NCBI GenBank assembly: GCA_000719105.1 | Contig: JODX01000010.1 | Location: forward strand, 230,814-294,813 | Reading direction: 5' to 3' | Source: Streptomyces sclerotialus | GTDB taxonomy: Bacteria; Actinomycetota; Actinomycetes; Streptomycetales; Streptomycetaceae | Length of the DNA stretch: 64,000 nucleotides | In this document: piece after piece, positions 12,019 to 61,319 of the stretch | How the letters are laid out: each line of letters opens with the position of its first letter | Position numbering within the stretch: the stretch's first letter is position 1 | Program-made: the position numbers and the translations under genes | The notes under the pieces: generated by a model | Told to the model about the DNA's origin: nothing | Seen by the model: the letters and a program-made list of their open reading frames with translations, nothing else | Database searches by the model: none

Positions 12019-12039
12019 CTCCCGGCGTCGCGCAGGCCC

Positions 12040-12081
12040 GTACGGCCCCCGGAGGTCCACCCGGACCTCCGGGGGCCGTAC
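12040..12081 (+). terminator. Perfect 19-bp hairpin terminator
   Basis: Arms 12040-12058 and 12063-12081 are exact complements (GTACGGCCCCCGGAGGTCC and its reverse) with a 4-base loop. It lies 21 bases after the C39 peptidase stop. Confidence 0.85.
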
Positions 12082-12176
12082 CGTGTGACCAAGCTCTCCG
12101 CGGCAACCGCCCCATTCGGTGGCAAGGTGGACGGATAAGTGGGGGGATCCACCGCACGACGAGAGCAGCGAGCAGC

Positions 12177-12329
12177 ATGACCGCGACATCCGCCACCGCA
12201 GACCGGACCCGTACCCGTGCCCGTACCGGCGGTCCCGAGGACGACGGCCCCAAGATCTTCGAGCACATCATGGGCTGGACCCTCGTCGTGGTCCTGGCGA
12301 TGCTGGTCACCCAGCTCGGCCTGCTGTGA
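12177..12329 (+). CDS. Small single-pass membrane protein
   Basis: A 50-residue protein: a charged, Arg/Thr-rich N-terminus (residues 1-25), then a single hydrophobic helix WTLVVVLAMLVTQLGLL at the C-terminus, preceded by KIFEHIMG. The ATG at 12177 is used; the frame is open far upstream as a shadow of the peptidase gene. Function unknown. It stands alone between a strong terminator and a TetR gene. Confidence 0.68.
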   Translation: MTATSATADRTRTRARTGGPEDDGPKIFEHIMGWTLVVVLAMLVTQLGLL

Positions 12330-12429
12330 ACCGGGCCGGCCGACCTGTCGAACCGTAGTCGAACAAGCGGGTGGCCCCGGTCTGCCATACTGCCGATGTC
12401 CCGCCGGCAGTTGGAGACTTGGGCCGACA

Positions 12430-13089
12430 TTGACTGGTAGTCCACAGGGCGCGAACGGGCGAACGGGGACGCGCGGAACCGGCCGCTCCCTGGCCCGCCG
12501 CGCCGAACTCATCGCCATCGGGCGGAAGCTGTTCGCCGACACCTCCTACGACGCCCTGTCGATGGACGACATCGCGCGCCAGGCACACGTCGCCAAAGGG
12601 CTGATCTACTACTACTTCAAGTCCAAGCGCGGCTACTACCTCGCGATCGTCGAGGACTCGGTGGCCGACCTCGTCACCCTGGCGGCGAGCGGCCGCGAGG
12701 TGCCGCCCGTGGAGCGGGTGCAGCGCACCGTCGACGGTTATCTGCGCTACGCCGAGAACAACCAGGAGGCGTACCGCACCATCGTCAGCGGCGGCGTCGG
12801 CTTCGACACCCAGGTCCAGGCCATCCGCGACGAGGTGCGCGAGGCGATCGTCGCGACCATCGCCGAGGGGGCGTACGGCCGGCGGGACATAGCTGCGCTG
12901 CCCCGCATGGGTCTCCTCGGGTGGGTGTGCGGTGTCGAGGGCACCACTCTGGACTGGATCGACCGCCCCGCGCTGTCCCGCGAGGACATGCGCGAGCTGC
13001 TGGTGAAGACGCTGGGCGGCACGATGCGCGCCATCGAGGAACTCGAACCGGCGTACCTCGCTCCGCATCCCGCACGCCGCGACGCGTAG
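12430..13089 (+). CDS. TetR/AcrR-family transcription regulator
   Basis: About 219 residues. The DNA-binding helix-turn-helix is clear: LFADTSYDALSMDDIARQAH followed by VAKGLIYYYFKSKRGYYLAI. The C-terminal ligand domain has a TetR_C-type region with YRTIVSGGVGFDTQVQAI. A TTG at 12430 is taken as the start because coding character begins there and no ATG or GTG lies between it and the HTH; this is a weak point. The next gene on the same strand is an acyl-CoA dehydrogenase, so a fatty-acyl-CoA effector is a reasonable inference. Confidence 0.85.
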   Translation: MTGSPQGANGRTGTRGTGRSLARRAELIAIGRKLFADTSYDALSMDDIARQAHVAKGLIYYYFKSKRGYYLAIVEDSVADLVTLAASGREVPPVERVQRTVDGYLRYAENNQEAYRTIVSGGVGFDTQVQAIRDEVREAIVATIAEGAYGRRDIAALPRMGLLGWVCGVEGTTLDWIDRPALSREDMRELLVKTLGGTMRAIEELEPAYLAPHPARRDA

Positions 13090-13211
13090 CGGGCGAGGTC
13101 GCGGCCGGGTGGCCGGTCACCCTCGGGCTGGCGTGACATGAGCATGTCAATTCAGGGAGTGGATCGGTGCGGCCCGGCCCGGCAGGTGGAGACGGTTCTC
13201 GAAATGTGTCC

Positions 13212-13227
13212 TAATGAACGGTCGTTA
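13212..13227. promoter_or_regulatory. Candidate TetR operator before the acyl-CoA dehydrogenase
   Basis: TAATGAACGGTCGTTA is an imperfect palindrome (12 of 16 positions agree with its complement), lying between the TetR gene and the dehydrogenase gene. Actinobacterial fatty-acid TetR regulators often bind AACGGTCGTT-like dyads; the link to this regulator is inferred. Confidence 0.45.
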
Positions 13228-13396
13228 ACCGGTGACGCGCCGAACGGAATCGGGCATACTCCAACCGCCATCGCCGCTGACCAGCATCTTCCGTGACCCG
13301 GAAGGGTGTTGGCGGTTGTGGCCCGTGAGACCGGTGGCGCATCCCAACCGCGATGCGCGTCCGCCGGGAATGCCCCGACAGGGAGGAAGCGTCGCC

Positions 13397-14605
13397 ATGA
13401 CCGACCGCGCCGTGCCGCCGGTGGACCGTCAGCTGCCCACGGACGAGGCCCGTGCTCTGATCTCCCTCGTCCGGGAGATCGCCCAGCGGGAGATCACCCC
13501 GCACGCGTCCGACGAGGAGGAGGCCGGCCGCTTCCCCCGCCGGCTCTTCGCGCTGCTCTCCGAGTCGGGCCTGCTCGGTCTGCCGTACGGCGCCGAGTAC
13601 GGCGGGGGCGACCAGCCCTACGAGGTGTACCTCCAGGTCCTGGAGGAACTGGCGGCGGCGCGCCTCACCGTGGGCCTCGGCGTCAGCGTCCACACCTTGT
13701 CCTGTCACGCGCTCGCGACCTACGGCACCAAGCGGCAGCGGATCGAGTATCTGCCCGCCATGCTCGGCGGTGGCCTGCTCGGCGCGTACTGCCTGTCGGA
13801 GCCGGCCTCGGGCTCGGACGCGGCGTCCCTGCGTACGAAGGCGGTGCGGGACGATGGGGGCCCCTCCCGCTCGAGCGAAGCCGAGAGCGAGGGGCACTGG
13901 GTGCTGAACGGTACGAAGGCCTGGATCACGCACGGCGGGATCGCCGACTTCTACACCGTCATGGCGCGCACCGGTGCCGAGGGCCCCCGGGGCATCACGG
14001 CCTTCCTGGTCCCCGGCGACACTCCGGGGCTGAGCGCCGCGGCGCCCGAGAGGAAGATGGGCATGAAGGGCTCGCCCACCGCGCAGGTCCACTTCGACAA
14101 CCTGCGGATCTCCGACGACCGGCGGATCGGTGAGGAGGGGCAGGGCTTCGCCATCGCCCTGTCCGCACTCGACTCCGGGCGGCTCGGCATCGCGGCCTGC
14201 GCGATCGGCCTGGCGCAGGCGGCGCTCGACGAGGCGGTCGCGTACGCCACCGGGCGGCGGCAGTTCGGGCGCCCCATCTCCGACTTCCAGGGGCTGCGCT
14301 TCCTGCTGGCCGACATGGCGACGCAGCTCGAGGCGGGCCGGGCCCTGTATCTGGCCGCGGCACGGCTGCGGGACGCGGGCCTGCCGTTCTCCAAGCAGGC
14401 GGCCATGGCGAAACTGCACTGCACCGACACCGCGATGAAGGTCACCACCGACGCCGTCCAGGTCCTCGGCGGGTACGGCTACACCGCGGACTTCCCGGCC
14501 GAGCGGTACATGCGCGAGGCCAAGGTGCTGCAGATCGTCGAGGGCACCAACCAGATTCAGCGGATGGTCATCGCCCGTCACCTGGCGGGTGCCGAGTCGC
14601 GCTGA
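13397..14605 (+). CDS. Acyl-CoA dehydrogenase with an in-frame repeat insertion
   Basis: A 402-residue FAD enzyme that oxidises acyl-CoA to enoyl-CoA. Family features: YCLSEPASGSDAASLRTKAV (FAD/substrate segment), WVLNGTKAWITHGG, and the C-terminal motifs QVLGGYGYTADFPAERYMRE and EGTNQIQRMVIARHL. The catalytic Glu position appears to be in the C-terminal EGTNQIQ loop. The start is ATG 13397, behind GGGAGGAAG. Between the two FAD motifs lies an extra stretch GGPSRSSEAESEG, encoded by a palindromic repeat (13855-13894) that members of the family normally lack. The site is a surface beta-turn, so the enzyme may still fold. Confidence 0.93.
   Translation: MTDRAVPPVDRQLPTDEARALISLVREIAQREITPHASDEEEAGRFPRRLFALLSESGLLGLPYGAEYGGGDQPYEVYLQVLEELAAARLTVGLGVSVHTLSCHALATYGTKRQRIEYLPAMLGGGLLGAYCLSEPASGSDAASLRTKAVRDDGGPSRSSEAESEGHWVLNGTKAWITHGGIADFYTVMARTGAEGPRGITAFLVPGDTPGLSAAAPERKMGMKGSPTAQVHFDNLRISDDRRIGEEGQGFAIALSALDSGRLGIAACAIGLAQAALDEAVAYATGRRQFGRPISDFQGLRFLLADMATQLEAGRALYLAAARLRDAGLPFSKQAAMAKLHCTDTAMKVTTDAVQVLGGYGYTADFPAERYMREAKVLQIVEGTNQIQRMVIARHLAGAESR
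13855..13894 (+). repeat. Streptomycete palindromic repeat inserted inside a coding region
   Basis: The 40-bp segment begins TGGGGGCCCCTCCCGCTCG and ends GCCGAGAGCGAGGGG. Its outer CCCCTC/GAGGGG arms are complementary and its core is CTCGAGCG. From memory, closely similar elements are scattered through Streptomyces genomes, mostly between genes. Here one sits within the acyl-CoA dehydrogenase frame and adds about 13 residues without breaking it. Confidence 0.7.
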
Positions 14606-14858
14606 GGGCACCGGCGCCGAACGGGTCCGGGGACGCCGTGCGGGCGTCGACGTCCTGCGGGGGCGCCGCGAGCCGGGCCCATTCCGGATCGTGGTGCCCC
14701 GGCAGCGTACGGCCGCGTTCCGCCCAGTTGCGCATCATGGCGCGGTAGATGGGCGGGTCCTGGGGCGGCTGGCCCGGCCGCCGCGCGACCGTTCCCGCGG
14801 ACGGCGCCGGGACGGTGATGTGGAGGGGACGCCGGGTCACTGAAGAGGTGGGGGTCAT
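14568..14858 (-). CDS. Small hypothetical protein overlapping the dehydrogenase 3' end
   Basis: A 96-residue protein with strong third-position G/C. It has a helical core PPIYRAMMRNWAERGRTLPG followed by HHDPEWARLAA, a pattern found in short streptomycete proteins of unknown function. The stop at 14568 lies 38 bases inside the convergent acyl-CoA dehydrogenase gene. The ribosome site is weak. From its 5' end to the next gene (14859-15050) nothing is seen. Confidence 0.58.
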   Translation of the reverse strand: MTPTSSVTRRPLHITVPAPSAGTVARRPGQPPQDPPIYRAMMRNWAERGRTLPGHHDPEWARLAAPPQDVDARTASPDPFGAGALSATRHPPGDGR

Positions 14859-15050
14859 ACCGGGACAACGCTCGTATCGGTGACGCGGTCACCGGCCCTT
14901 GGATTCGGGCCTGTGTTCGCGGTGGTGCGGTGGGAACCGGCGCCGGCGCCCGGGGACCCGGACGCATCGTGTCCGCACCACGGCGGGCGCGTGCCGCGGT
15001 GCGGGGCGGTCACCGGGCGGGGCTCGCGGGCCGAGCGGACTCCGCGGCCG

Positions 15051-15473
15051 TCAGGCGGCCCGGCGCAACACCGGCATCCGCATCGGGCGCGATCCCGGGC
15101 CGCCGACGTGCGAGAAGGGCTGGGTCCGCCAGTCGAGCCCCTGCGGAAGCGTCAGCAGGACGGCGGTGTCGCGCTCCCTGGGGGTCGTGGACTCGTCCGC
15201 AGGTCGTGCGTCGGCCGCCGCGCGGCCCGTGCCGGCGCAGACCGTGAGCCCGAACGGGTTCCACGGCGAGGCGCACAGCGCGTGCTCGGGCAGGATGTCC
15301 TCGTCCGGCAGGAGCGCGATGGGCTGCGCGCAGGCCGGGCAGATGACCCGGTACATCTCGAAGGTGTCGTACGCGTCGAACTCGTCGTCGGGTTCGACGC
15401 CCTCCGGCGCGGGCTCGACGACCGGCTGCGGGCGCTTGGGCGCGGTACGACCAGGGCGCTTAAGACTCTGCAT
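15051..15473 (-). CDS. Hypothetical protein with a CxxC zinc-finger-like pair
   Basis: A 140-residue soluble protein of unknown function. The centre has MYRVICPACAQPIALLPDED, then EHALCASPWNPFGLTVCAG; the cysteines could bind zinc. An acidic tract (EPDDEFDAYDTFEMY) lies just before. A GGGGGAG ribosome site lies seven bases before the ATG at 15473. It is divergent from the Lrp-type regulator. Confidence 0.7.
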   Translation of the reverse strand: MQSLKRPGRTAPKRPQPVVEPAPEGVEPDDEFDAYDTFEMYRVICPACAQPIALLPDEDILPEHALCASPWNPFGLTVCAGTGRAAADARPADESTTPRERDTAVLLTLPQGLDWRTQPFSHVGGPGSRPMRMPVLRRAA

Positions 15474-15701
15474 GGGTTACTCCCCCTCGGGCTGGGCCGT
15501 GAAGGCACTGCGGCCTCGACCACAGCAACCACTTCCCGTCCACTTCACGCCGTAATCACGGGAACATCACGAAGCCTGTTCGGGCACTGTGGCGTTCGTC
15601 ACATGCCGGATGCGAATGACCGGTGCGGAGGTCAGGGCGCCCCGACGCCCCGCGGGCAGCAGCACGGGGAGCTCTCGGACGCATCACGAACCGGGCATGA
15701 C

Positions 15702-15712
15702 CTGCGTCGCAG
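15702..15712. promoter_or_regulatory. Palindrome in the Lrp-type regulator's promoter region
   Basis: CTGCGTCGCAG is an 11-bp perfect dyad about 40 bases before the regulator start. Lrp/AsnC proteins commonly bind such sites for autoregulation. The rest of the gap 15474-15753 holds no gene. Confidence 0.35.
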
Positions 15713-15753
15713 ATGTATCCGGGTAGATCGGCGGCCCTGTAGGTTCTTGCGCC

Positions 15754-16194
15754 ATGGAGGAGCTGGATCGACAGATCGTGCAGCTGCTCGTCGAGGACGG
15801 GCGGATGAGTTACACAGACCTGGGCAAGGCGACGGGCCTGTCCACGTCCGCCGTGCACCAGCGGGTGCGCCGGCTGGAACAGCGCGGCGTCATCCGCGGA
15901 TACGCAGCGGTGGTCGACCCGGAGGCCGTCGGGCTGCCGCTGACCGCGTTCATCTCGGTGAAACCGTTCGACCCCAGCGCCCCCGACGACATCGCCGAAC
16001 GCCTCGCCGGCGTCCCGGAGATCGAGGCGTGCCACAGCGTCGCGGGCGACGAGAACTACATCCTCAAGGTCCGCGTCGCCACCCCGCACGAGCTGGAGGA
16101 ACTGCTGGCCCGGCTGCGGTCGCTGGCGGGCGTGTCGACGCGTACGACGGTGGTGCTGTCGACGCCGTACGAGGCCAGGCCGCCGCGCATCTAG
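15754..16194 (+). CDS. Lrp/AsnC-family transcription regulator
   Basis: A 146-residue feast/famine regulator. The N-terminal winged helix is MEELDRQIVQLLVEDGRMSY with recognition helix GLSTSAVHQRVRRLEQRGVI. The C-terminal RAM domain has AERLAGVPEIEACHSVAGDE and the ligand loop ENYILKVRVATP. Length and motifs are typical of the family, which senses amino acids. The target is unknown; the downstream amidohydrolase is separated by a terminator. Confidence 0.92.
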   Translation: MEELDRQIVQLLVEDGRMSYTDLGKATGLSTSAVHQRVRRLEQRGVIRGYAAVVDPEAVGLPLTAFISVKPFDPSAPDDIAERLAGVPEIEACHSVAGDENYILKVRVATPHELEELLARLRSLAGVSTRTTVVLSTPYEARPPRI

Positions 16195-16220
16195 CCCTTC
16201 CGGCAACACGGCCCCGTGGC

Positions 16221-16246
16221 TGCCGGGCCCTGTCGAGGGCCCGGCA
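16221..16246 (+). terminator. Perfect 11-bp hairpin after the Lrp-type gene
   Basis: TGCCGGGCCCT and AGGGCCCGGCA are exact complements around a GTCG loop, 27 bases after the stop. Confidence 0.8.
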
Positions 16247-16317
16247 CGGTGGCGCACCTATGCGGTTCCGGCCGCCCCGCGCGCGGGGCACCGCGTGCGA
16301 GGCGCGAGACTGTTGCC

Positions 16318-17931
16318 ATGAGTGAGAGCACCACCTCGTCGGACACCGTGCTGCTGCGCGGTGGAGAAGTCCACAGCCCCGCCGATCCCTTCGCCACCGC
16401 CATGGTGGTGGAGCACGGCCGGATTGCCTGGGTCGGCTCCGAGGGCGCCGCCGACGCCTTCGCGGACGGCGCCGACGAGGTGATCGACCTGGACGGGGCC
16501 CTGGTCACCCCGGCGTTCACCGACGCGCATGTGCACACCACGGCCACGGGCCTCGCGCTGACCGGCCTCGACCTGTCCGGCGCCTCCTCCCTGGAGACCA
16601 CCCTCGCGCGCGTGCGCGCGTTCGCCGCGGCCCGCCCGGCGGACCGGGTGCTCCTCGGGCACGGCTGGGACGCCTCCCGCTGGCCGGGCGGCCGTCCGCC
16701 CACGCGCGCGGAGCTCGACGAGGCCACCGGCGGCCGCCCGCTCTACCTGAGCCGGATCGACGTGCACTCGGCGGTCGTCACCAGTGCCCTGCTCGACCTG
16801 GTCCCCGGCGGCACCGGCTTCCCTGACGGCCCGCTGACGGGCGACGCCCACCACGCCGTACGCGCCACCGCGCTGGGCGCCGTCACCCCCGCCCAGCGCA
16901 CCGAGGCGCAGCGCGCCGCGCTCGCCCACGCCGCCTCCCTCGGCATCGGCACCGTCCACGAGTGCGGCGGCCCGGAGATCTCCTCGGAGGACGACTTCAC
17001 GGCCCTGCTGCGGCTCGCCGCCGAGGAGCCCGGCCCCCGGGTCGTCGGCTACTGGGCCGAACAGGGCGAGGAGGGCGTGGCGAGGGCCCGCGCACTGGGC
17101 GCGATCGGCGCCGCGGGCGACCTTTTCGTCGACGGCGCCCTCGGCTCGCACACCGCCTGCCTGCACGAGCCGTACACCGACGCCGCCCACACCGGCACCG
17201 CCCACCTGGACGCCGCGGCCGTGGCCGCCCATGTCGTCGCCTGCACCGAGGCGGGTCTCCAGGCCGGCTTCCACGCCATCGGGGACGCCGCCGTCAGCAC
17301 CGTGGTCGAGGGCGTGCGGGCCGCCGCCGACAAGGTCGGCCTCGCCCGTGTCCGCGCCGCCCGGCACCGCGTCGAGCACGCCGAGATGCTCACCCCGGAG
17401 ACCGTTGCAGCCTTCGCCGAGCTGGGCCTCACCGCCTCCGTGCAGCCCGCCTTCGACGCCCTGTGGGGCGGCGAGGACGGCATGTACGCCCGGCGGCTGG
17501 GTGCCGAACGGGCCCGTACGCTCAACCCGTTCGCGGCCCTGCTGCGCGCCGGCGTCCCCCTCACCTTCGGCTCCGACAGCCCCGTCACCCCCCTGGATCC
17601 GTGGGGCACGGTCCGCGCGGCGGCCTTCCACCGCACCCCGGAGCACCGGGTGTCCGTGCGTGCCGCGTTCACCGCGCACACCCGTGGCGGCTGGCGGGCG
17701 ATCGGCCGGGACGACGCGGGTGCGCTGGTGCCGGGCGCGCCCGCGGACTACGCCGTGTGGCGCACCGATGCGCTCGTGGTCCAGGCGCCCGACGACCGGG
17801 TCGCCCGCTGGTCGACCGATGCCCGTTCGGGCACCCCGGGGCTGCCCGATCTGAGCCCCGGCAAGGACCTGCCGCTCTGTCTGCGCACCGTGGTGGGCGG
17901 GCGAACGGTGTTCGTGCGGCAGGGCGAGTGA
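16318..17931 (+). CDS. YtcJ-like metal-dependent amidohydrolase
   Basis: A 537-residue amidohydrolase (Amidohydro_3 type). Metal ligands are visible as TDAHVHTT (HxH, about residue 78), GFHAIGDAAV and HRVEHAEM (His sites), and FGSDSPVTPLDPW (Asp). The N- and C-terminal strands LLRGGEVHSPAD and DYAVWRTDALVVQ form the small composite beta-domain. ATG 16318 is chosen as the first start with a normal family N-terminus. Substrates of this class range from imides to formamides, so none is assigned. Confidence 0.88.
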   Translation: MSESTTSSDTVLLRGGEVHSPADPFATAMVVEHGRIAWVGSEGAADAFADGADEVIDLDGALVTPAFTDAHVHTTATGLALTGLDLSGASSLETTLARVRAFAAARPADRVLLGHGWDASRWPGGRPPTRAELDEATGGRPLYLSRIDVHSAVVTSALLDLVPGGTGFPDGPLTGDAHHAVRATALGAVTPAQRTEAQRAALAHAASLGIGTVHECGGPEISSEDDFTALLRLAAEEPGPRVVGYWAEQGEEGVARARALGAIGAAGDLFVDGALGSHTACLHEPYTDAAHTGTAHLDAAAVAAHVVACTEAGLQAGFHAIGDAAVSTVVEGVRAAADKVGLARVRAARHRVEHAEMLTPETVAAFAELGLTASVQPAFDALWGGEDGMYARRLGAERARTLNPFAALLRAGVPLTFGSDSPVTPLDPWGTVRAAAFHRTPEHRVSVRAAFTAHTRGGWRAIGRDDAGALVPGAPADYAVWRTDALVVQAPDDRVARWSTDARSGTPGLPDLSPGKDLPLCLRTVVGGRTVFVRQGE

Positions 17932-36632: not shown

Positions 36633-37352
36633 ATGCCGGGCATGGCAGAACTGACGGGACTGGCCGACGACCGGGCACTGCTGGGCCGGACCAGCACGGC
36701 GGAGCGAGTCTCGGACATCCTCAGAAGCCGGATCGCCGAGGGCTTCTTCCCGCCCGGCACCCGGCTGTCCGAGGACAGCATCGGCGGGGCGCTCGGTGTC
36801 TCCCGCAACACGCTGCGCGAGGCGTTCCGCCTGCTCACCCATGAACGGCTGCTCGTGCACGAGCTCAACCGCGGGGTCTTCGTCCGGGTGCTGACCGTGG
36901 AGGACGTCGAGGACATCTTCCGCACCCGCAGCCTCGTCGAGTGCGCGGTCGTCCGAGGGCTCGGCGAGCCCCCGTACGCCGTGGAGGGCCTCGCCAAGGC
37001 CGTCGCGGAAGGGCAGCGGTCGGCCCGTGAGGGCGACTGGAAGGGCGTGTCCACGGCCAACATCCACTTCCACCGGGAGCTGGTCGGCCTCGCGGGCAGC
37101 GAGCGCACCGACGAGCTGATGCGCAGCGTCTTCGCCGAACTCCGGCTCGCCTTCCACGTGGTGGACGACCCGCGCCGCCTCCACGAGCCGTATCTCGCCC
37201 GCAACCGCCAGCTCCTCCAGACCCTCCAGGCGGGCGACCGCGACGGCGCGGAGCGACTGCTCGCGGTCTACCTCGACGACTCGCTGAGGGGGCTGGTCGA
37301 GGTGTACGGGCGACGGGTGGCCGACGCGGGGCAGGGGATCGGGATCGTCTGA
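36633..37352 (+). CDS. GntR-family regulator, FCD (FadR-like) subgroup
   Basis: A 239-residue regulator. The winged helix is RVSDILRSRIAEGFFPPGTR with recognition part GALGVSRNTLREAFRLLTHE, and the FCD domain has EDIFRTRSLVECAVVRGLGE, HFHRELVGLAGSERTDELMR and EPYLARNRQLLQTLQAGDRD (metal-binding histidine in HFH). It probably represses the divergent MFS/DUF1445/PxpBC operon in response to a carboxylate. ATG 36633; a second ATG at 36642 is possible. Confidence 0.92.
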   Translation: MPGMAELTGLADDRALLGRTSTAERVSDILRSRIAEGFFPPGTRLSEDSIGGALGVSRNTLREAFRLLTHERLLVHELNRGVFVRVLTVEDVEDIFRTRSLVECAVVRGLGEPPYAVEGLAKAVAEGQRSAREGDWKGVSTANIHFHRELVGLAGSERTDELMRSVFAELRLAFHVVDDPRRLHEPYLARNRQLLQTLQAGDRDGAERLLAVYLDDSLRGLVEVYGRRVADAGQGIGIV

Positions 37353-37502
37353 GGGCAGGATCGTCTGAGGGGCGGGCGCCCGTTCCCGGGCCGGTACGAG
37401 GGCCGTCGGCAGCCTGGCATCCGATTCTCCGTCGGGCCTGGCGAGCAGGGGGCCCGGCGCTCGTTTGGGTCGTTGTCAGAGCGAGGACCTAATCTGTGCA
37501 CC

Positions 37503-39020
37503 GTGACTTCGCCTGCATCGACGGACAGCGTTCCGCCCCAGCTCAGCGCGGGGCCGCGCCCCGCGCCGGGCCCGGCCGCCGACGAGGGACTGGCACGGCG
37601 GCTGCGCGCGCTCGCCTGCACCGCGCCGCTGCACGACCTCGACGCGCGCAAGGCCAATCTCGCGGGTGAGTACTCGGTGTACGGCATGGCGGAGGTCGCC
37701 CTCGCCGCCATCGACCTGGTCACGCTGAACATGGACTTCGACACGGGCGCCGACCACGAGCAGATCGTCGCCCGGCTCGTCCCGCGCATCGCCGCACAGG
37801 CCCCGCAGCGCCCCGTCGCCGAGCACGAGCGGGTGGCCCGCTGGGTGTTGGAGAACCTGATCAACGTCGGCAGCGTGGACCGCGGCTTCCGGGCGGTGTA
37901 CGGCACCTTCGCGTCCGACGGCACCTATGTGCGGCGCGACTACGACTTCAAGCTGATCGAGGAGGTCCCCGGCTACGGGGGCGGCGTCTACCTCCGGACC
38001 ACCGACGAGGCCGTCAACGTCCTCGTGGGTGCCCTCGACACCGATGTCACCAGCGCGCAGATCGCCGCCGAGGTCAAGCTGGAGGTGCTGATCAGCCGCG
38101 GTCGGCTGGCCGACGCCCAGCTCGCCGCCGAACAGGCCCGCTACCGCACCGTGCAGTACTCGGAGACGCTCAGGAAGGCCCTGGACGCCACCCGCCGCAA
38201 CGTCCGCGCGGTGGACTGGCTCCAGGCCGTCCCGGACATGATCGCCGAGGCCCTCGACCACGTGGCGGACCGCTACCGCCACGAGAACGCGATCCTCACC
38301 AACATCCGCAAGGCCCGCGACGAGTCCGAGGACCCCGAGCACAAGCGGCGCGCCGCCGAGCTGGTCGACATCGTCAAGGACTGCATCCGCCGGCACACCC
38401 AGCTGCAGTCCCGGCTGCTGGAGGCCGGCCCGCTCTTCCGCGCCGAACAGGACCGCCAGGCCTTCGGCACGCCCCTGACCACGTCGGGCATCGACCTGTA
38501 CGGGCACCTGGTCGCGCCCGTCCTCCCGCTGCCCCTTCAGGAGGCGGTCCGTGTGACGGACGCGTTCTTCGCGCGCGGGACCGGGTTCCGTACGCGGGCC
38601 TCCGTGCGCGTCGGGGATCTCGTCGACCTGCTGCTGACACCGCCCGTGGAGCGCGAGCACCTGGGCGCCGAGATGCCCGAGCCGGACCTGATCGCCACCC
38701 CGGACGACAGCCGGTTCAGCGAGGAGCAGCTGGCCGTCGCCACCGAGCTGCTCGATCTGCCCGCGGACGCGCCCCGCCGGCTCTCCGGCCTGCTCGCCGA
38801 GGCCCGCCGCCAGGATCCCGAACTGCCGTACCTGGTCGCCCTGCTGGCCGTGCACGCGGCCAGCCCGCCGGTCGGCACCGCCTACCGGCAGGGCGAGGAG
38901 AAGCTGCTGTTCGCCGTGGACGACGGGACGGAGCTGGACGACCCGGAGTTCGGGGGCGCGGACCTGATCGTGGGCACGGCGCTGCTGGACGCGGTGGGAA
39001 TGGCGGCGGACAGATCATGA
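37503..39020 (+). CDS. Kleisin-like subunit of an SMC-type complex (MksF/JetA-like)
   Basis: A 505-residue mostly helical protein, first of three genes. A winged-helix-like N-terminus (residues ~30-130: MAEVALAAIDLVTLNMDFDT) precedes a helical region YLRTTDEAVNVLVGALDTDV and IAAEVKLEVLISRGRLADAQ with LAAEQARYRTVQYSETLRKA, the sort of linker that kleisins use to bridge SMC heads. The C-terminus is helical (SEEQLAVATELLDLPADAPR). The order and size match MukF/MksF/JetA. Assignment is by architecture, not by a recognised domain. GTG start 37503; the gap before it holds nothing but a small direct repeat. Confidence 0.6.
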   Translation: MTSPASTDSVPPQLSAGPRPAPGPAADEGLARRLRALACTAPLHDLDARKANLAGEYSVYGMAEVALAAIDLVTLNMDFDTGADHEQIVARLVPRIAAQAPQRPVAEHERVARWVLENLINVGSVDRGFRAVYGTFASDGTYVRRDYDFKLIEEVPGYGGGVYLRTTDEAVNVLVGALDTDVTSAQIAAEVKLEVLISRGRLADAQLAAEQARYRTVQYSETLRKALDATRRNVRAVDWLQAVPDMIAEALDHVADRYRHENAILTNIRKARDESEDPEHKRRAAELVDIVKDCIRRHTQLQSRLLEAGPLFRAEQDRQAFGTPLTTSGIDLYGHLVAPVLPLPLQEAVRVTDAFFARGTGFRTRASVRVGDLVDLLLTPPVEREHLGAEMPEPDLIATPDDSRFSEEQLAVATELLDLPADAPRRLSGLLAEARRQDPELPYLVALLAVHAASPPVGTAYRQGEEKLLFAVDDGTELDDPEFGGADLIVGTALLDAVGMAADRS

Positions 39021-39123
39021 CCGCTCCGCCGCCGGGCCGGGGACCCGCGGCTTCCCTGCCCTTTCCCGCCGTACAACAGCCCGTACCGCCGCACCCCGAA
39101 CGATCGAACAAGGAGCCCCAGCC

Positions 39124-40002
39124 GTGACCGAGCACGTCGAGTGGAGTGAGCCGGAGGCCGTCGCCGCTCCGGCGTCCGCCGCCGTCACCCCCGCCGACGC
39201 CGCCGACGCGGCGCGGCTCGTCGCCTTCGGCCTCCAGCCCAGGCTGCAGCCCGCGCGCGACCAGGAGTACGGGGAGCTGCTGCGGCGCTACCGGGAGGAC
39301 CCGCCGTTCGCGCGGCTCGCCGACGCCGTGGCCACCGGGCTGGGGCTGGTCGTCCTGGAGGTGTCCCCGCGCGCGGGCATGGCCGTGACGGCCGCCGAGG
39401 ACTCCGTGTTCGCCGTACGCATGAGCGACTACGCGCGTCGTACGTCGTCCGACGCGGGCGACCGGTTCCTGCACGGGCTGGCCCATCTCGCCGTCGCGGC
39501 CCTGGCGTTTCCCCGCCCCGAGGACCTCGCCGACGACGGGTACATCGGGCGCGTGTCGGTCAACGGCGTCGACTCCTTCGTACGGCAGGCCTGCCGCAGG
39601 CTGGAGGAGCGCGCCGAGGAGCAGGGCGAGAACACCGACCCGGCGACCGACGCGCCCGGACTGGAGGCCGCCTGGCGGATCTGGGTCAGACGCAGCGCCA
39701 CCGGGGCGACCAAGGACGCACGCAGACTGGCCGGTTCGACCACCGGCATAGTCGGCAAGGCCGTCGCGTTCCTCACCGACTCCGGGTTCCTGCAGCGCAC
39801 GGGCGACGACAACGGCGGCACCTACCGCACGACCGCCCGCTACCAGCTCCAGGTGCGCGACATGGCGGGCAGCGCCGCCATGGCCGAGCTGCTGGAGCTG
39901 GGCGTCGTCCCGGTGACCGACGGCACGGCCACACTGCTGCCCGCCGAGGACACCGACGACCTGGAGCTGGTGGCCGACGCCGGGCTGCCGTTCCACTCCT
40001 GA
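39124..40002 (+). CDS. KITE/MksE-JetB-like subunit
   Basis: A 292-residue protein. The middle (GDRFLHGLAHLAVAALAFPR, SVNGVDSFVRQACRRLEERA) is helical, and the C-terminal part STTGIVGKAVAFLTDSGFLQ followed by GTYRTTARYQLQVRDMAG reads as a winged helix. That is the KITE layout of MukE, MksE and JetB, which bind the kleisin. It starts at a GTG with an AAGGAG site, 103 bases after the kleisin-like gene, and 72 bases before the SMC-like gene. Confidence 0.58.
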   Translation: MTEHVEWSEPEAVAAPASAAVTPADAADAARLVAFGLQPRLQPARDQEYGELLRRYREDPPFARLADAVATGLGLVVLEVSPRAGMAVTAAEDSVFAVRMSDYARRTSSDAGDRFLHGLAHLAVAALAFPRPEDLADDGYIGRVSVNGVDSFVRQACRRLEERAEEQGENTDPATDAPGLEAAWRIWVRRSATGATKDARRLAGSTTGIVGKAVAFLTDSGFLQRTGDDNGGTYRTTARYQLQVRDMAGSAAMAELLELGVVPVTDGTATLLPAEDTDDLELVADAGLPFHS

Positions 40003-40074
40003 CGCTCCTGACCGAGCTCTCCGCCCGGTCCGCCACCGAACCACCGTCACGACCGACCGCGAAAGTCCGCCGCC

Positions 40075-43000
40075 ATGTACGAGCTGTCCCGGGTCCGCCT
40101 CTACTCCATCGGTCCGGCCGGTGCGCGCTACGCCGACACCGTGCTGGACCTGCGGGGTGTGGGCGAGCCCGTGCCCGACCCCGCGCCGCAGCAGGCGGAG
40201 TTCTTCGAGGAGGAGCCCGTCGGGCCGCCGCGCCGCCCGGCGCCCGCCGGCGTGCTCTTCCTGGAGAACGGCGGCGGCAAGTCCGTCCTCCTGAAACTGA
40301 TCTTCTCGGTGATGCTCCCCGGCCACCGCAACACCCTCGGCGGTGCCAGCTCCGGCGTGCTGCGCAAGTTCCTGCTCGCCGACGACTGCGGGCACGTGGC
40401 GCTGGAGTGGCAGCACACGCTGACCGGTGAGTGCGTCGTGGTCGGCAAGGCCAGCGAGTGGCGCGGACGGCAGGTCTCCAACGACCCGCGGAAGTTCGCC
40501 GAGGCCTGGTACTCCTTCCGGCCCGGCCCCGGACTCAGCCTGGACAACCTGCCGGTCGCCGAGTCCACCGCCGTACGACCGTCCGTCGAGGGCGTCTCCG
40601 GGGCGCGCGGACGGCGCCGCACGATGAAGGGCTTCCGGGACGCGCTGACGGAGGCGGGCAAGACGTACCCGCACCTGGAGGTGCACTGGGAGGAGATCCA
40701 CGACCGCTGGAACGAGCACCTCACCGACCTCGGCCTCGATCCCGAACTCTTCCGTTACCAGCGGGAGATGAACGCCGACGAGGGCGAGGCCGCCGGCCTG
40801 TTCGCGGTCAAGAAGGACTCCGACTTCACCGACCTGCTGCTGCGCGCCGTCACCGACACCCGCGACACCGACGGTCTCGCCGACCTGGTCGGCGGCTTCG
40901 GCAACAAGCTGGGCCGGCGCGCCGAGCTGATCGCCGAGCGGGACTTCACGGCCGGTTCCGTGGACCTGCTCGGCCGGATCGTGGACGCCGCCGAGGCACG
41001 GCAGCGGGCCCGTGACATCCACGCCGCCGCCGAGCGCCGCACCCGCACGCTGGCCCGCAGGCTGTCCGCCCGGGCCGGACAGGAGCGGGAGCGGGGCGCC
41101 GACCTCGCCCAGCGGGTCACCGCCGCCGCGCACGCCGTCACGGAGGCCGAGAGCGCCCGCGAGCGCAGCGCCCTCGTCGCGGCGGAACTCGCCTACCGGC
41201 ACGCCTCCCTCGCACTCTCCGCCGCCGAGAAGTCCGCCGCCGCTCAGAAGCGCGAACTCGCCGACGCACGCACCCTGCACTCCGCCTGGCAGGCCGCCGA
41301 GGCCGTGCTGCGTCACCGCGCCGCCGCCGACCGCGTCGCGCGCGTGGCCGTCGCGATCCAGGGGGCCGAGCGGGACGCCGCCCCCGCGCTCGCCGCCCGC
41401 GCCAAGGCCGCCGTCGATCTCGTACGCGCCCTGCAGAGCGCCGCCGGGAGCGCCGAGGCCCTCGCCAACGAGGGGGACGAGCGGTCCGCCGCGCTCCAGG
41501 AGGCCGGCGAGACCGCGTACCGGGACTCCACGGCCGCCGCCACCGACGCGCAGCGCGCCCGCAGCGAGGCCGGGCACCTGCGGCAGCGGCTCGCCGAGGT
41601 CGAGCAGGAGACCGCCGAGGCGGTACGGGCGGGCTGGCTCGACGACAGCGCGCCCGACGCCGACCCGGCGCGGGCCGCGCTCGCCGCCAGTGACGCGGAG
41701 AAGACGGCCGTCGCCGCCTGGGACACCGCGCGCGAGGCCTCCCGCCGCGCCTCCGAGCATGCCCGGGAGGCCGCCTCCGCCGAGTCGCGCGCCGAGCTGA
41801 CCGCGGCCCGCGCGGCGGACGCGGCCACGGCGGCCGAGCGCGCGTACGAGGCCGAGCGCCGCACGGCCGAGGCACTGGCGGCGGAGGAGCGGCTCGCAGA
41901 GCTGCTGAGCCTGCCGAGCGCCTCCGGTGGGGTGCCGGCGCCGAGGCGCGGCGACGCCGACGGCGGCAGCGAGGGCGGCACCGAGGCCGCGAGCGGAACC
42001 CAGGACGGCGCGGCCGGGAAGACTGGTCGCGGCGCGGCCCCCCGCGACCTCGCCGACGGCCCCCTCACCCCGGAAGAACTGGACCGCTGCGCCGACGCAT
42101 TGCGCGAGCTGCTCGACGAGAACGTCACCGCCGCCGAACGGCACCTCTTCGAACTGCGCACCGCGGCAGCCGACGACGCCCGGATCCTCGGCGCCCTCGG
42201 TGACGGCGGACTGCTCCCGCCCGGCCCGGACGTGCTCGCCACCGTGGAGTTCCTCGGCGAGCACGGCATCCCCGCCCTTCCCGGCTGGCGCTACCTCGCC
42301 CAGGCGGTCGACCCGGCCGACCACGCGCGCGTGCTCGCGGCGCGGCCCGAGCTGGTCGACGGCGTGATCATCACTGACCCGGACAGCCACGCCCGGGCCC
42401 GTGACGCCCTCTCCGGCGCCGCGCTGCTGCCCCGCTCCACGGTGGCCGTGGGCACCGCCGCCGCGCTGCTCGCGCCCACCCCGGCCCCGGACGCCGGCGA
42501 CACCGGCGTCTTCCTCGTCCCGCCGAACCCGGCCATGCACGACGAGCACGCCGCCGACGAGGAGCGGCAGGCCCTGCGCGCGCGGGCGACCGAGCGCGAC
42601 GAGGAGATCCGCACGCTCGCCGCGCGCCTCGGCAAGGACCGCGAGCTGGCGGCACGGCTCGCCTCGTGGCGCACGGGCTGCCCGGCGGGACGGCTCACCG
42701 AGCTCGCCGAGGCCGCCCGCGGGACACGCGCGTTCGCCGAGGAGGCCGAGGCCGAGCTCGCCGAGGCGCGCACCGTACGGGCCGAGGCCGAGGAGGCCGC
42801 CGCCGAGGCCGCCCAGGTGCGCGACGAACGCCAGGAGACCGCACAGCGGGCCCGGCGCGCCGCCGACGCCCTCGCCGGACTCGCCTTCCGCCTGCGGGAA
42901 CGCGCCGCCTGGCAGGTCAGGCTGCGGGAACTCGCCGACGAGGCCGCCGAGTCGGAGGCCCGCGCCCAGACCTGCCTGGAGCGGGCCCGCGCCGCCGACG

Positions 43001-44778
43001 AGGACCGCCGTGCCGCCCAGCGCGCCGCCGACGACGCCCGCCGCACGGCCCGCGCCCTGCGTGCCGAGCGCGCCGAGATCGCGGGCGCCCCCGACGACGT
43101 ACCCGAGGACGGCTCCCAGGCGCCCGAGGCGTCGCTCCCCGCCCTCCGTGAGGCCTACCGGGCCGCCTCCCAGGTGTACGAGAAGGTCGGTGTCGGTGCC
43201 GATCTGCGCGCCGAACAGGCCCGCGCCGAGAGCGACGAGAGCGCGGCCCGCACCGAGCTCGACCGGCTCAGCAACAAGGTCCGCAACCGCGCCGAGCAGC
43301 TCCTCCAGTCCCCCGACGGCTCCGACGGGCCCTCCCGGCAGGCCGCCGCCGCGCGCGCGGAGGAGCTCGTACAGCTCCTCGAGACCCGGATGTCCACCGC
43401 GAGCGAGCAGCTCGGGCGGCTGCGCGGCGAGGCCGAGCGGCTCGCCCCCGGGGACGGCGAGGAGGCGCACACCGAGCTGCCCGCGGAACTGTTCCCGGTC
43501 GGCGCCGACCACGCCCAGTCCCTGCTGCGCACCGCCACCGCCGAACTCGCCTCCCGCACCGAGGCGCTGGACCAGGCCCGCGAGACCCACGCCGGCCTGC
43601 TCGAGGCCCACCGTGCCGCCGAGGACGCGGCCGGCGGCTTCGACGAGACGGCCACCCTCCTCCGCGACCTGCTGCGCGAGCACGCCACGGCCGATGAGCA
43701 GGAGGCTTCCGAGCCGTACCCCGGCAGCCTGGAGGAGGCGCGCAAGGCCGCCGCCGAGGCCCGTCGCTCGCTGCGCGGCTGCTCCGCCGACCTGTCCGCC
43801 GCCGAGGCCGCCGTACGCGAGGCGAGCGACATCCTCGTCCGGCACGCCAACGCAACGCGCTACGAGCAGGTCCGCACCCCGGCCCGCCAGCAGATCCGCG
43901 AACTGCCCGCGTCCGCGCTGCCCGAGCACGCGCAGAAGTGGGCGGACGCCTTCGCGCCCCGCCTGCGGGTCCTCACCGACGAGCTGGAGCAGCTCGAGCG
44001 CAACCGGGACTCGATCGTGGACCGGCTGCGCGGGCTCGTGGAGTCGGCCCTCGCCACGCTGCGGTCCGCGCAGCGGCTGTCACGGCTGCCGGAGGGCCTG
44101 GGAGAGTGGTCGGGGCAGGAGTTCCTGCGTATCCGCTTCGAGGAACCCGACCAGGCCACCCTCGTCGAACGGCTCGGCGAGGTCATCGACGAGGCCACCC
44201 GCGCGGCCGTGAGGAAGAACTTCGACCTGCGGCGCGACGGCGTGTCCCTGCTGCTGCGCGGGGTCGCCGCGGCTCTGCGCCCGAAGGGCGTCGCCGTGGA
44301 GATCCTCAAGCCGGACGCCGTGCTGCGCGCGGAGCGGGTGCCCGTCGGGCAGATGGGCGACGTGTTCTCCGGCGGACAGCTGCTGACCGCGGCGATCGCG
44401 CTGTACTGCACGATGGCGGCGCTGCGCTCCAACGACCGGGGCCGCGACAAGCACCGGCACGCGGGCACCCTGTTCCTCGACAACCCCATCGGACGCGCCA
44501 ACGCCACGTATCTGCTGGAACTCCAGCGGGCCGTGTCGGACGCCCTCGGTGTGCAGCTGCTGTACACCACCGGCCTGTTCGACACGACGGCGCTCGCCGA
44601 GTTCCCGCTGGTCATCCGGCTGCGCAACGACGCCGACCTGCGGGCCGGCCTGAAGTACATCAGCGTGGAGGAGCACCTCCGCCCGGGGCTTCCGCAGCCG
44701 CCCCAGGCGGGGGAGGCGGTGCACAGCAAGATCACGGCGACACGGATGTACAAACGGCCCGCGCCGACGGCCGGTTGA
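40075..44778 (+). CDS. SMC-like coiled-coil ATPase (MukB/MksB/JetC-like)
   Basis: A 1567-residue protein with an SMC layout. N-terminal head: Walker A-like ENGGGKSVLLKLIF (Lys69, Ser70). About residues 330-690: Ala/Glu/Arg-rich coiled coil. About 690-850: a compact region without coil (ILGALGDGGLLPPGPDVL; ELVDGVIITDPDSHARARDA), a candidate hinge. Then a second long coiled coil to ~1390. C-terminal head: ABC signature FSGGQLLTAAIALYCTMAAL (Ser1432) and Walker B TLFLDNPIGRANATYL (Asp1469), with Asn1470 where the catalytic Glu normally is. It is longer than MukB or JetC. Weak ribosome site before ATG 40075. No Toprim nuclease (JetD/MksG) follows. Confidence 0.75.
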   Translation: MYELSRVRLYSIGPAGARYADTVLDLRGVGEPVPDPAPQQAEFFEEEPVGPPRRPAPAGVLFLENGGGKSVLLKLIFSVMLPGHRNTLGGASSGVLRKFLLADDCGHVALEWQHTLTGECVVVGKASEWRGRQVSNDPRKFAEAWYSFRPGPGLSLDNLPVAESTAVRPSVEGVSGARGRRRTMKGFRDALTEAGKTYPHLEVHWEEIHDRWNEHLTDLGLDPELFRYQREMNADEGEAAGLFAVKKDSDFTDLLLRAVTDTRDTDGLADLVGGFGNKLGRRAELIAERDFTAGSVDLLGRIVDAAEARQRARDIHAAAERRTRTLARRLSARAGQERERGADLAQRVTAAAHAVTEAESARERSALVAAELAYRHASLALSAAEKSAAAQKRELADARTLHSAWQAAEAVLRHRAAADRVARVAVAIQGAERDAAPALAARAKAAVDLVRALQSAAGSAEALANEGDERSAALQEAGETAYRDSTAAATDAQRARSEAGHLRQRLAEVEQETAEAVRAGWLDDSAPDADPARAALAASDAEKTAVAAWDTAREASRRASEHAREAASAESRAELTAARAADAATAAERAYEAERRTAEALAAEERLAELLSLPSASGGVPAPRRGDADGGSEGGTEAASGTQDGAAGKTGRGAAPRDLADGPLTPEELDRCADALRELLDENVTAAERHLFELRTAAADDARILGALGDGGLLPPGPDVLATVEFLGEHGIPALPGWRYLAQAVDPADHARVLAARPELVDGVIITDPDSHARARDALSGAALLPRSTVAVGTAAALLAPTPAPDAGDTGVFLVPPNPAMHDEHAADEERQALRARATERDEEIRTLAARLGKDRELAARLASWRTGCPAGRLTELAEAARGTRAFAEEAEAELAEARTVRAEAEEAAAEAAQVRDERQETAQRARRAADALAGLAFRLRERAAWQVRLRELADEAAESEARAQTCLERARAADEDRRAAQRAADDARRTARALRAERAEIAGAPDDVPEDGSQAPEASLPALREAYRAASQVYEKVGVGADLRAEQARAESDESAARTELDRLSNKVRNRAEQLLQSPDGSDGPSRQAAAARAEELVQLLETRMSTASEQLGRLRGEAERLAPGDGEEAHTELPAELFPVGADHAQSLLRTATAELASRTEALDQARETHAGLLEAHRAAEDAAGGFDETATLLRDLLREHATADEQEASEPYPGSLEEARKAAAEARRSLRGCSADLSAAEAAVREASDILVRHANATRYEQVRTPARQQIRELPASALPEHAQKWADAFAPRLRVLTDELEQLERNRDSIVDRLRGLVESALATLRSAQRLSRLPEGLGEWSGQEFLRIRFEEPDQATLVERLGEVIDEATRAAVRKNFDLRRDGVSLLLRGVAAALRPKGVAVEILKPDAVLRAERVPVGQMGDVFSGGQLLTAAIALYCTMAALRSNDRGRDKHRHAGTLFLDNPIGRANATYLLELQRAVSDALGVQLLYTTGLFDTTALAEFPLVIRLRNDADLRAGLKYISVEEHLRPGLPQPPQAGEAVHSKITATRMYKRPAPTAG

Positions 44779-60333: not shown

Positions 60334-60422
60334 CCTGGCGTTTCCCCCTGTCCACCGGGCATTGTCAGTGCCGCTGGTTACTGTGAGTGAGCATTGATCG
60401 ACTGCTGCGCACAGGGGGACAC

Positions 60423-61319
60423 ATGCCGCAGACCCAGCACCCGACCATGCGACGCGTCCTGCGCCGCGAGATCGCCGGCACCATCGGCCTGCTGGCCGAC
60501 GAACACGACTTCACGGCGATGCGGCGCTACCGCACCTTCACCTTCGACGACCACACGGTCTACCTCCGACAGGTCGAGGCGCTGCTCAGGACCCTTGCCG
60601 CACAGGGCAGCCACACCACGGTCGCCCTCTTCGACCCCGAGGAGTACGCGGAATACTGCGCCGAGACCGGCCTGGAACCCGACACCCCGACCAGCCGCAC
60701 CCGCTACACCGCCGAGCTGGCCGCGACGGGTCCCAGCGTCCCCTACGAAGGCCAGCCCCTCGACGAACTCCTCCCCGACCTGGTCGACGAGGCGGTCCGG
60801 CAGGCCACCTGGCAGTACGCGGCCATGCTCCTGGCGGGCGTCGGCGCCTGCGCGTCCTGCGGCGAGGACATCGGGCGCGCCGCCTTCACCCAGGCATCCG
60901 CACTGCTCACCCGCATCCTCGACACCGCGGGGCCGGGCGAACGCCACCTCGTGTGCAGTGTCTCCACCACCAGCGAGCCCCTCACCGTCGCCCTGCGGAC
61001 CGAGGAGAGCCCCGCCGGCGAACGGCTCATGGACGAGACCGAAGCCCTCGAACTCGCCACGGTCCTGGCCCTGGGCCTGGCCACCCGGAGCGCCGGCGGC
61101 GTCATCATGCGCACCAGCAGGCCCGGCACCACCGACCGCGTCTACGGATGGCGCCTGTGCGGAGACGGCGTCGAGCCCCTCACCGCCGGCGAGGTGTTCG
61201 ACGCCTACTGCACGGACGCCCTGTCCGGAGACCTCGTCGCCCCGGAGTCGGACGTCGACTACTGCACCCCACCCGCCCTCGGAGACGACGGGCCGACGAA
61301 GGGCGGCCACACCCACTGA
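60423..61319 (+). CDS. Conserved hypothetical protein
   Basis: A 298-residue soluble protein with no recognised domain. The N-terminus has a helical core GTIGLLADEHDFTAMRRYRT and the middle has AAMLLAGVGACASCGEDIGR with a CxxC pair; the C-terminal third is acidic. ATG 60423 follows a GGGGGAC site and is preferred to the earlier GTG/ATG frame. It ends before a terminator facing ptsI. Role unknown. Confidence 0.7.
   Translation: MPQTQHPTMRRVLRREIAGTIGLLADEHDFTAMRRYRTFTFDDHTVYLRQVEALLRTLAAQGSHTTVALFDPEEYAEYCAETGLEPDTPTSRTRYTAELAATGPSVPYEGQPLDELLPDLVDEAVRQATWQYAAMLLAGVGACASCGEDIGRAAFTQASALLTRILDTAGPGERHLVCSVSTTSEPLTVALRTEESPAGERLMDETEALELATVLALGLATRSAGGVIMRTSRPGTTDRVYGWRLCGDGVEPLTAGEVFDAYCTDALSGDLVAPESDVDYCTPPALGDDGPTKGGHTH

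Follow-up and report, generated by a model that had tools for sequence, protein, structure and literature searches.

Wadjet type III systems comprise the kleisin JetA, the kleisin-interacting tandem winged-helix element (KITE) protein JetB and the structural maintenance of chromosomes (SMC) ATPase JetC, encoded in the order A-B-C, with the Toprim nuclease JetD beside JetABC. Here we describe a trio of genes in a 64-kb stretch of Streptomyces sclerotialus DNA (contig JODX01000010.1, positions 230,814 to 294,813; hereafter the window) that encodes homologs of JetA, JetB and JetC in the same order and with the same ATPase motifs, but without JetD. While JetD-bearing Wadjet type III loci are patchy accessory elements, the trio is a fixed core component of Streptomycetaceae genomes with its own conserved promoter, which agrees in its box, spacer length (8 nt) and -10 element with the consensus of the RecA-NDp/PafBC DNA damage genes. 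Our favored explanation, to which we assign a probability of about 0.58, is that the trio is a domesticated Wadjet III core without JetD that would act as a damage-inducible SMC complex beside the canonical Smc. Compared with the systems described so far, what is new is a Wadjet of type III kin that has no nuclease, is fixed as a family core and carries a probable damage promoter.

The MukBEF- and MksBEF-type complexes likewise consist of three genes without a nuclease, and MksBEF of Pseudomonas aeruginosa is described as a precedent for a nuclease-free Wadjet-like trio acting on the chromosome (PMC10586767). Given that the kin of our trio is type III, its loss of JetD was presumably independent of Pseudomonas MksBEF, with which it was compared by description. 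In actinobacteria, SMC trios with a kleisin and a KITE subunit are likewise represented by the MksBEFG (EptABCD) systems of Corynebacterium glutamicum and mycobacteria. The mycobacterial MksB was reportedly called a condensin in a 2024 study. The C. glutamicum system carries the nuclease MksG and is described as acting on plasmids (PMC10123090, PMC7083940). A survey of actinobacterial defense systems reported that Wadjet is enriched towards Streptomyces chromosome ends and, in its accessible text, makes no mention of 'JetD' (PMC10482375). We found neither a JetD-less Wadjet nor a Wadjet condensin of Streptomyces in the open-license literature, and no report, within the accessible parts of the literature, of an SMC complex in the RecA-NDp/PafBC regulon.

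The three open reading frames (ORFs) lie in the same direction on the forward strand at positions 37503–39020, 39124–40002 and 40075–44778 of the window and encode proteins of 505 aa (from a GTG start), 292 aa and 1567 aa, respectively. The first matched the PADLOC JetA3 model with an E-value of 4.5e-186, and the third matched JetC3 (PDLC00588, described there as DUF3584) with an E-value of 0 and 1415 bits. The second had no match among the PADLOC models and was identified as a JetB homolog by phmmer matches to JetB of all nine JetD-bearing type III loci (60.9–250.3 bits). In Foldseek searches, its structure model was best matched by MukE (3rpu_G) and JetB (8dk1_E), both with a probability of 1.00 and with E-values of 2e-3 and 7.5e-3, respectively, and the best match of the first gene model was MukF. 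These predicted folds support, with moderate confidence, a MukF-like kleisin for JetA and a KITE protein with the tandem winged helices of MukE/JetB for JetB, and no unrelated fold appeared for either gene. Although MukBEF has the same gene layout as the trio, PDB sequence searches retrieved nothing related, with no MukBEF chain matched at the sequence level, and Smc is retained beside the trio rather than replaced by it. The Pfam and NCBIfam searches of the trio gave nothing usable, and where the best 120 of 1129 kleisin homologs were named, they were called, as far as the truncated names show, hypothetical, uncharacterized, membrane or DUF3375 proteins.

In jetC, the Walker A motif ENGGGKS (40264–40284), the ABC signature VFSGGQ (44362–44379) and the Walker B region LFLDNPIG (44470–44493) are all on the forward strand and were found in 81/81 JetC sequences (the window and 80 Streptomyces loci). 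The preliminary description of this DNA had proposed three co-directional genes of these sizes with a P-loop, signature and Walker B-like motif in a MukFEB/JetABC layout, all of which was confirmed by the ORF check, the JetC motif counts, the PADLOC and JetB matches and the predicted folds. The usual Walker B motif has a glutamate after the aspartate, which LDNP lacks. LDNP in place of the canonical DE occurs in JetD-bearing and JetD-less JetC3 alike, and an ATPase loss peculiar to the nuclease-free form was rejected. A low-complexity linker directly before the presumed hinge of JetC (approximately 41908–42069, forward strand) is expanded in many, but not all, JetD-less JetC proteins; it was rejected as a diagnostic of the JetD-less form, being hardly present in loci L174, L180, L186 and L188. 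A fused nuclease was also rejected, as the subunit lengths were similar to those of JetD-bearing relatives and the extra pre-hinge sequence of JetC is of low complexity.

JetD was searched for with a hidden Markov model (HMM) built from nine JetD3 proteins, which recovered 9/9 of them in a leave-one-out run with E-values of 4.3e-55 or better. The model had no match in the window, in the 80 Streptomyces core loci (downstream sequence of 1.2 kb or more in 79, less in L035) or in the 16 loci that represent 11 further Streptomycetaceae genera (flank of 1.2 kb or more in 15; L203 is cut before JetC), and the absence of a nuclease near the trio noted in the preliminary description therefore held in the window and the 80 core loci. 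By contrast, among eight second copies of the system picked blind to their JetD status, seven had JetD and the eighth, L183, ends at a contig end. Because the JetD HMM itself found their JetD, these seven copies served only as a contrast, and sensitivity was assessed by the leave-one-out run. No JetD-docking motif clearly lost in JetB or JetA was found, only scattered group-specific residues. A linked fourth gene was rejected after comparison of the 25 largest clusters of neighboring ORFs, where the upstream pxp-like and the downstream genes were present in at most 11 of 15 other-genus loci and in none of nine loci of a second JetD-less family.

That second family emerged from a class-wide draw, in which JetA3 was found in 43 of 296 genomes and 5 of 114 genera, namely the genus of the window and four genera of one other family, where 19/35 genomes have JetA3. 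We take it to be probably Frankiaceae, a name that is our own and was given by no tool. JetC3 was found in 100 of 101 Streptomyces genomes (97/97 good ones), and JetA3 in 294 of 297 Streptomycetaceae genomes (287/288 good ones) and all 17 genera, where both tallies include any copy, core or accessory. The three family genomes missing JetA3 were G452, G500 and G573, of which G500 (71% complete) has JetC3; the JetC3 search found none in G452 and G573, nor in G079, the one miss of the 101. All three genes were present in 78 of the 80 core loci, the other two (L062 and L066) lacking JetA and/or JetB where their contigs end, so that an SMC gene without the first two genes, a pattern raised in the preliminary description, was not what the survey across Streptomyces found. 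The median identities of the trio to the window across the 80 loci were 93, 91 and 88%, compared with 61–85% for neighboring genes (best tblastn segment), and dN/dS was 0.06–0.23 in 15 comparisons of the JetD-less trio, which shows purifying selection.

The locus was at a median distance of 14.8% (3.8–34.6%) from the nearer chromosome end in 23 single-contig genomes, with most genome sizes rounded; its earlier placement in core DNA was nevertheless right by synteny and near-universality. The earlier suggestion of a housekeeping condensin for linear chromosomes gained from the core distribution, but its tie to linear chromosomes was weakened because the JetD-less form occurs in the second family too. 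One member of that family, G137, is presumably Frankia alni ACN14a, which has a circular chromosome, although no tool gave it this name. The canonical Smc is also present in the source genome, and the trio is thus an additional complex. In the second family (L171–L186), the trio was flanked in 9/9 loci compared by two conserved ORF clusters, the first upstream and the second, which is antisense in L171, some 150 bp downstream; neither had a member among the Streptomycetaceae loci.

In a JetA+JetB tree of 62 rows, the 30 JetD-less Streptomycetaceae rows formed one clade (100/100) that was sister (99/96) to 15 JetD-less second-family rows (100/100). Five of the latter loci (L170, L174, L176, L182 and L187) have less than 0.1 kb past JetC or no JetC, and the absence of JetD is unproven there because the contig or the retrieved sequence stops. 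The JetD-bearing rows, several of which are long branches and were flagged, fell outside the JetD-less clade, as did L183, which is labeled as second-family in the tree but is really a contig-cut second copy in a Streptomyces genome and was left uncounted. The fewest JetD state changes on this tree was one, and JetD was most simply, and probably, lost once, while the trio was apparently inherited vertically in Streptomycetaceae.

A 44-nt stretch whose last three bases are the jetA GTG was conserved in all 78 Streptomyces core loci holding JetA, with a mean pairwise identity of 0.895 vs 0.394 for the 44 nt before. In the window, the promoter element (37462–37502, forward strand) reads TTGTCAGAG-CGAGGACC-TAATCT, comprising a RecA-NDp-like box (37473–37481), an 8-nt spacer and a -10 element (37490–37495), with the GTG 7 nt on. 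Because of this short distance, the jetA mRNA is predicted to be probably leaderless. The element agrees with the capital letters and spacing of the reported RecA-NDp consensus tTGTCRgtg-8nt-TannnT (PMC5656591), and the chance expectation of this pattern in the window was 0.00. This promoter, which the preliminary description did not mention, suggests a role in DNA damage. The bare pattern TGTCR-N11-TANNNT gave 78 matches in the 80 loci (3.78 Mb, both strands), all at jetA, against 10.9 expected from base composition, where the loci are not independent draws because their flanks are homologous.

The pattern was also found upstream of jetA in 12 of the 16 other-genus loci, but not in L194, L195, L197 and L201. 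A weight matrix of the 44-nt element scored above all 100 shuffles in 13 of these 16 loci, the failures being L195, L201 (start misplaced by domain trim) and L202, whereas none of 16 JetD-bearing loci and, marginally, one of the 15 second-family loci passed. The 44 nt as coding sequence were rejected because the frame is not kept across loci, the distance from the -10 element to the start being mostly 7 nt but 8 nt in L188, L192 and L199. No GAAC-N4-GTTC-like SOS box (LexA) was found in 37001–37600.

PafBC is reported to activate damage genes through the RecA-NDp motif (PMC6789036) and to be triggered by single-stranded DNA (PMC11804915), Streptomyces species are reported to encode PafBC homologs (PMC9380542), and RecA-NDp has been described upstream of the UV-inducible SCO6735 of S. 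coelicolor (PMC5087735). In a positive control on 1.669 Mb of the source genome, including the window and locus L002, we found 22 matches to the pattern with a spacer of 8, and 11 of them were followed 5–9 nt on by the start of an ORF of at least 100 aa. For spacers of 5, 6, 7, 9, 10 and 11, there were 3, 3, 7, 4, 1 and 3 matches, of which 0, 0, 4, 0, 0 and 1, respectively, preceded such a start. Besides jetA, the genes following the pattern encode an AlkZ-like glycosylase, RecD2, PcrA, DnaG, FolC, a major facilitator superfamily (MFS) efflux pump, a SWIM protein, a HAD hydrolase and two ABC-ATPase proteins. The SWIM zinc-finger protein gene (L278:13076-14428) and the HAD hydrolase gene (L219:1653-2315), which start 7 and 6 nt past the pattern, respectively, are candidate unstudied damage-response genes. 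We also found a second RecA-NDp-type site in the window at 60362–60384 (TTGTCAGTG-N8-TACTGT), shortly before a plausible protein-coding frame at 60387–61319, whose product had no Pfam or NCBIfam match.

Under the favored explanation, a type III Wadjet core of kleisin, KITE protein and SMC ATPase would have shed JetD and become a fixed Streptomycetaceae operon. Single-stranded DNA arising at damage would lead PafBC to bring RNA polymerase to the jetA promoter and raise expression. By analogy with Wadjet and MukBEF, we infer that JetA would close the JetC dimers and JetB would bind them, and that the complex would use ATP to extrude, move or hold DNA loops. Loaded on chromosomal DNA, JetABC would compact and tether DNA that is damaged or broken, so that it can be repaired by recombination. 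With JetD missing, damaged or circular DNA that the complex meets would be captured or compacted instead of cut. A fuller version is tentative and, in our judgment, falls somewhat short of an even chance: the trio may be a second near-universal SMC complex of Streptomycetaceae, which arose from an immune system through loss of the nuclease and came under the control of the DNA-damage response. It would then be a bacterial functional equivalent of Smc5/6, acting on demand to capture, compact or tether DNA that is damaged and possibly also DNA of foreign origin.

Several observations weigh against this explanation. The box TTGTCAGAG of the window differs from the consensus at one lower-case letter, a spacer of 7 likewise gave four matches preceding a start, and six of the ten other pattern genes are not obviously involved in repair, the remaining four being PcrA, RecD2, the AlkZ-like glycosylase and DnaG. 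According to PMC9380542, an initial search pointed to a lack of conservation of the M. smegmatis PafBC motif in S. venezuelae, and such a pathway was left open there. Purifying selection also acts on JetD-bearing copies (dN/dS 0.14–0.32, six comparisons), and kinship is the basis for the action on the chromosome proposed here. The bare pattern was missing from 13 of the 15 second-family JetD-less loci, the other two having it with an ATG 7–8 nt on in an unchecked frame, and was present upstream of jetA in 4 of the 16 JetD-bearing loci (L102, L106, L107 and L184). Given these counts, control by damage neither holds for the nuclease-free form as a whole nor is peculiar to it; it may predate the loss of JetD or be independent of it, and the JetD-bearing cases suggest that damage or single-stranded DNA induces some real Wadjets.

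The near-universality, synteny and strong conservation of the trio, together with the precedent of P. aeruginosa MksBEF, also speak for a constitutive housekeeping condensin, in which the trio would be a MukBEF-like organizer of multigenomic hyphae and spores and not mainly a damage protein. We consider this unlikely, since the single conserved element seen immediately before jetA agrees with the damage consensus and a canonical Smc is already there. A non-cutting defense, in which JetABC would entrap and compact circular extrachromosomal DNA, silencing or blocking it as Smc5/6 does viral DNA, and in which PafBC induction by single-stranded DNA would mark invasion, draws on the ancestry of the trio in a plasmid-sensing system, the reported part of Smc5/6 in anti-viral immunity (PMC10586767) and the promoter motif common to the four JetD-bearing loci. 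Such a role is doubtful given that the trio is fixed and apparently vertical while JetD-bearing copies are patchy, nine of the 101 genomes having a strong JetD3. Many Streptomyces also carry plasmids, which again speaks against it. A decaying relic of a defense island would account for the missing JetD, but is extremely improbable in view of the low dN/dS, the ATPase motifs intact in 81/81 JetC and identities above those of the neighboring genes.

An ordinary Wadjet supplied in trans with a nuclease, whether an unlinked JetD or another, would require such a gene elsewhere, and the source genome does have a JetD-type gene: the PF09983 (JetD_C) and JetD3 searches each gave one and the same gene, on contig C19 in a separate operon, in an assembly that is 85% complete. 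Some match to JetD3 (PDLC00594, E up to 0.01) occurred in 17 of the 101 Streptomyces genomes, but 84 had none and 87 had no PF09983 (present in 14), in spite of JetC3 in 100. In all nine genomes with a strong JetD3, it adjoins its own JetABC, separate from the core copy. For the eight genomes with weak JetD3 only, operon context was read for the source genome alone; in six others the match was on another contig or megabases away from the core JetC, and in G028 it was unplaced. No cluster among the 25 largest of neighboring ORFs spanned both families. We therefore regard a nuclease in trans as very unlikely, and the defense module with a separate effector envisaged in the preliminary description was not supported for JetD in trans.

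The JetD-type gene of the source genome belongs to a separate divergent Wadjet-like operon (L002:8411-15668, at about 32.4–39.7 kb of C19 in G000), where it comes first (about 500 aa) and is followed by frames of 493 aa, 425 aa (weak JetB1) and 1155 aa. Because its PADLOC scores are low, this operon may represent an undescribed Wadjet subtype. In one Streptomyces chromosome assembled as a single contig (G090:C1), a pair of type III JetC and JetD genes occupies each end (11107-16697 and 9222617-9228027), perhaps within terminal inverted repeats, with JetA and JetB read at the first end only (L109).

Since defense-finding models also match the trio, partial matches could be miscounted as immunity. 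If our favored explanation is true, the best-known antibiotic producers would turn out to have an unstudied SMC complex in their core genome. The occurrence of JetABC both with JetD and without it within a single genus offers a natural experiment on the conversion of an immune SMC machine into one that serves the chromosome, and the proposed transition from Wadjet to condensin becomes testable in laboratory Streptomyces.

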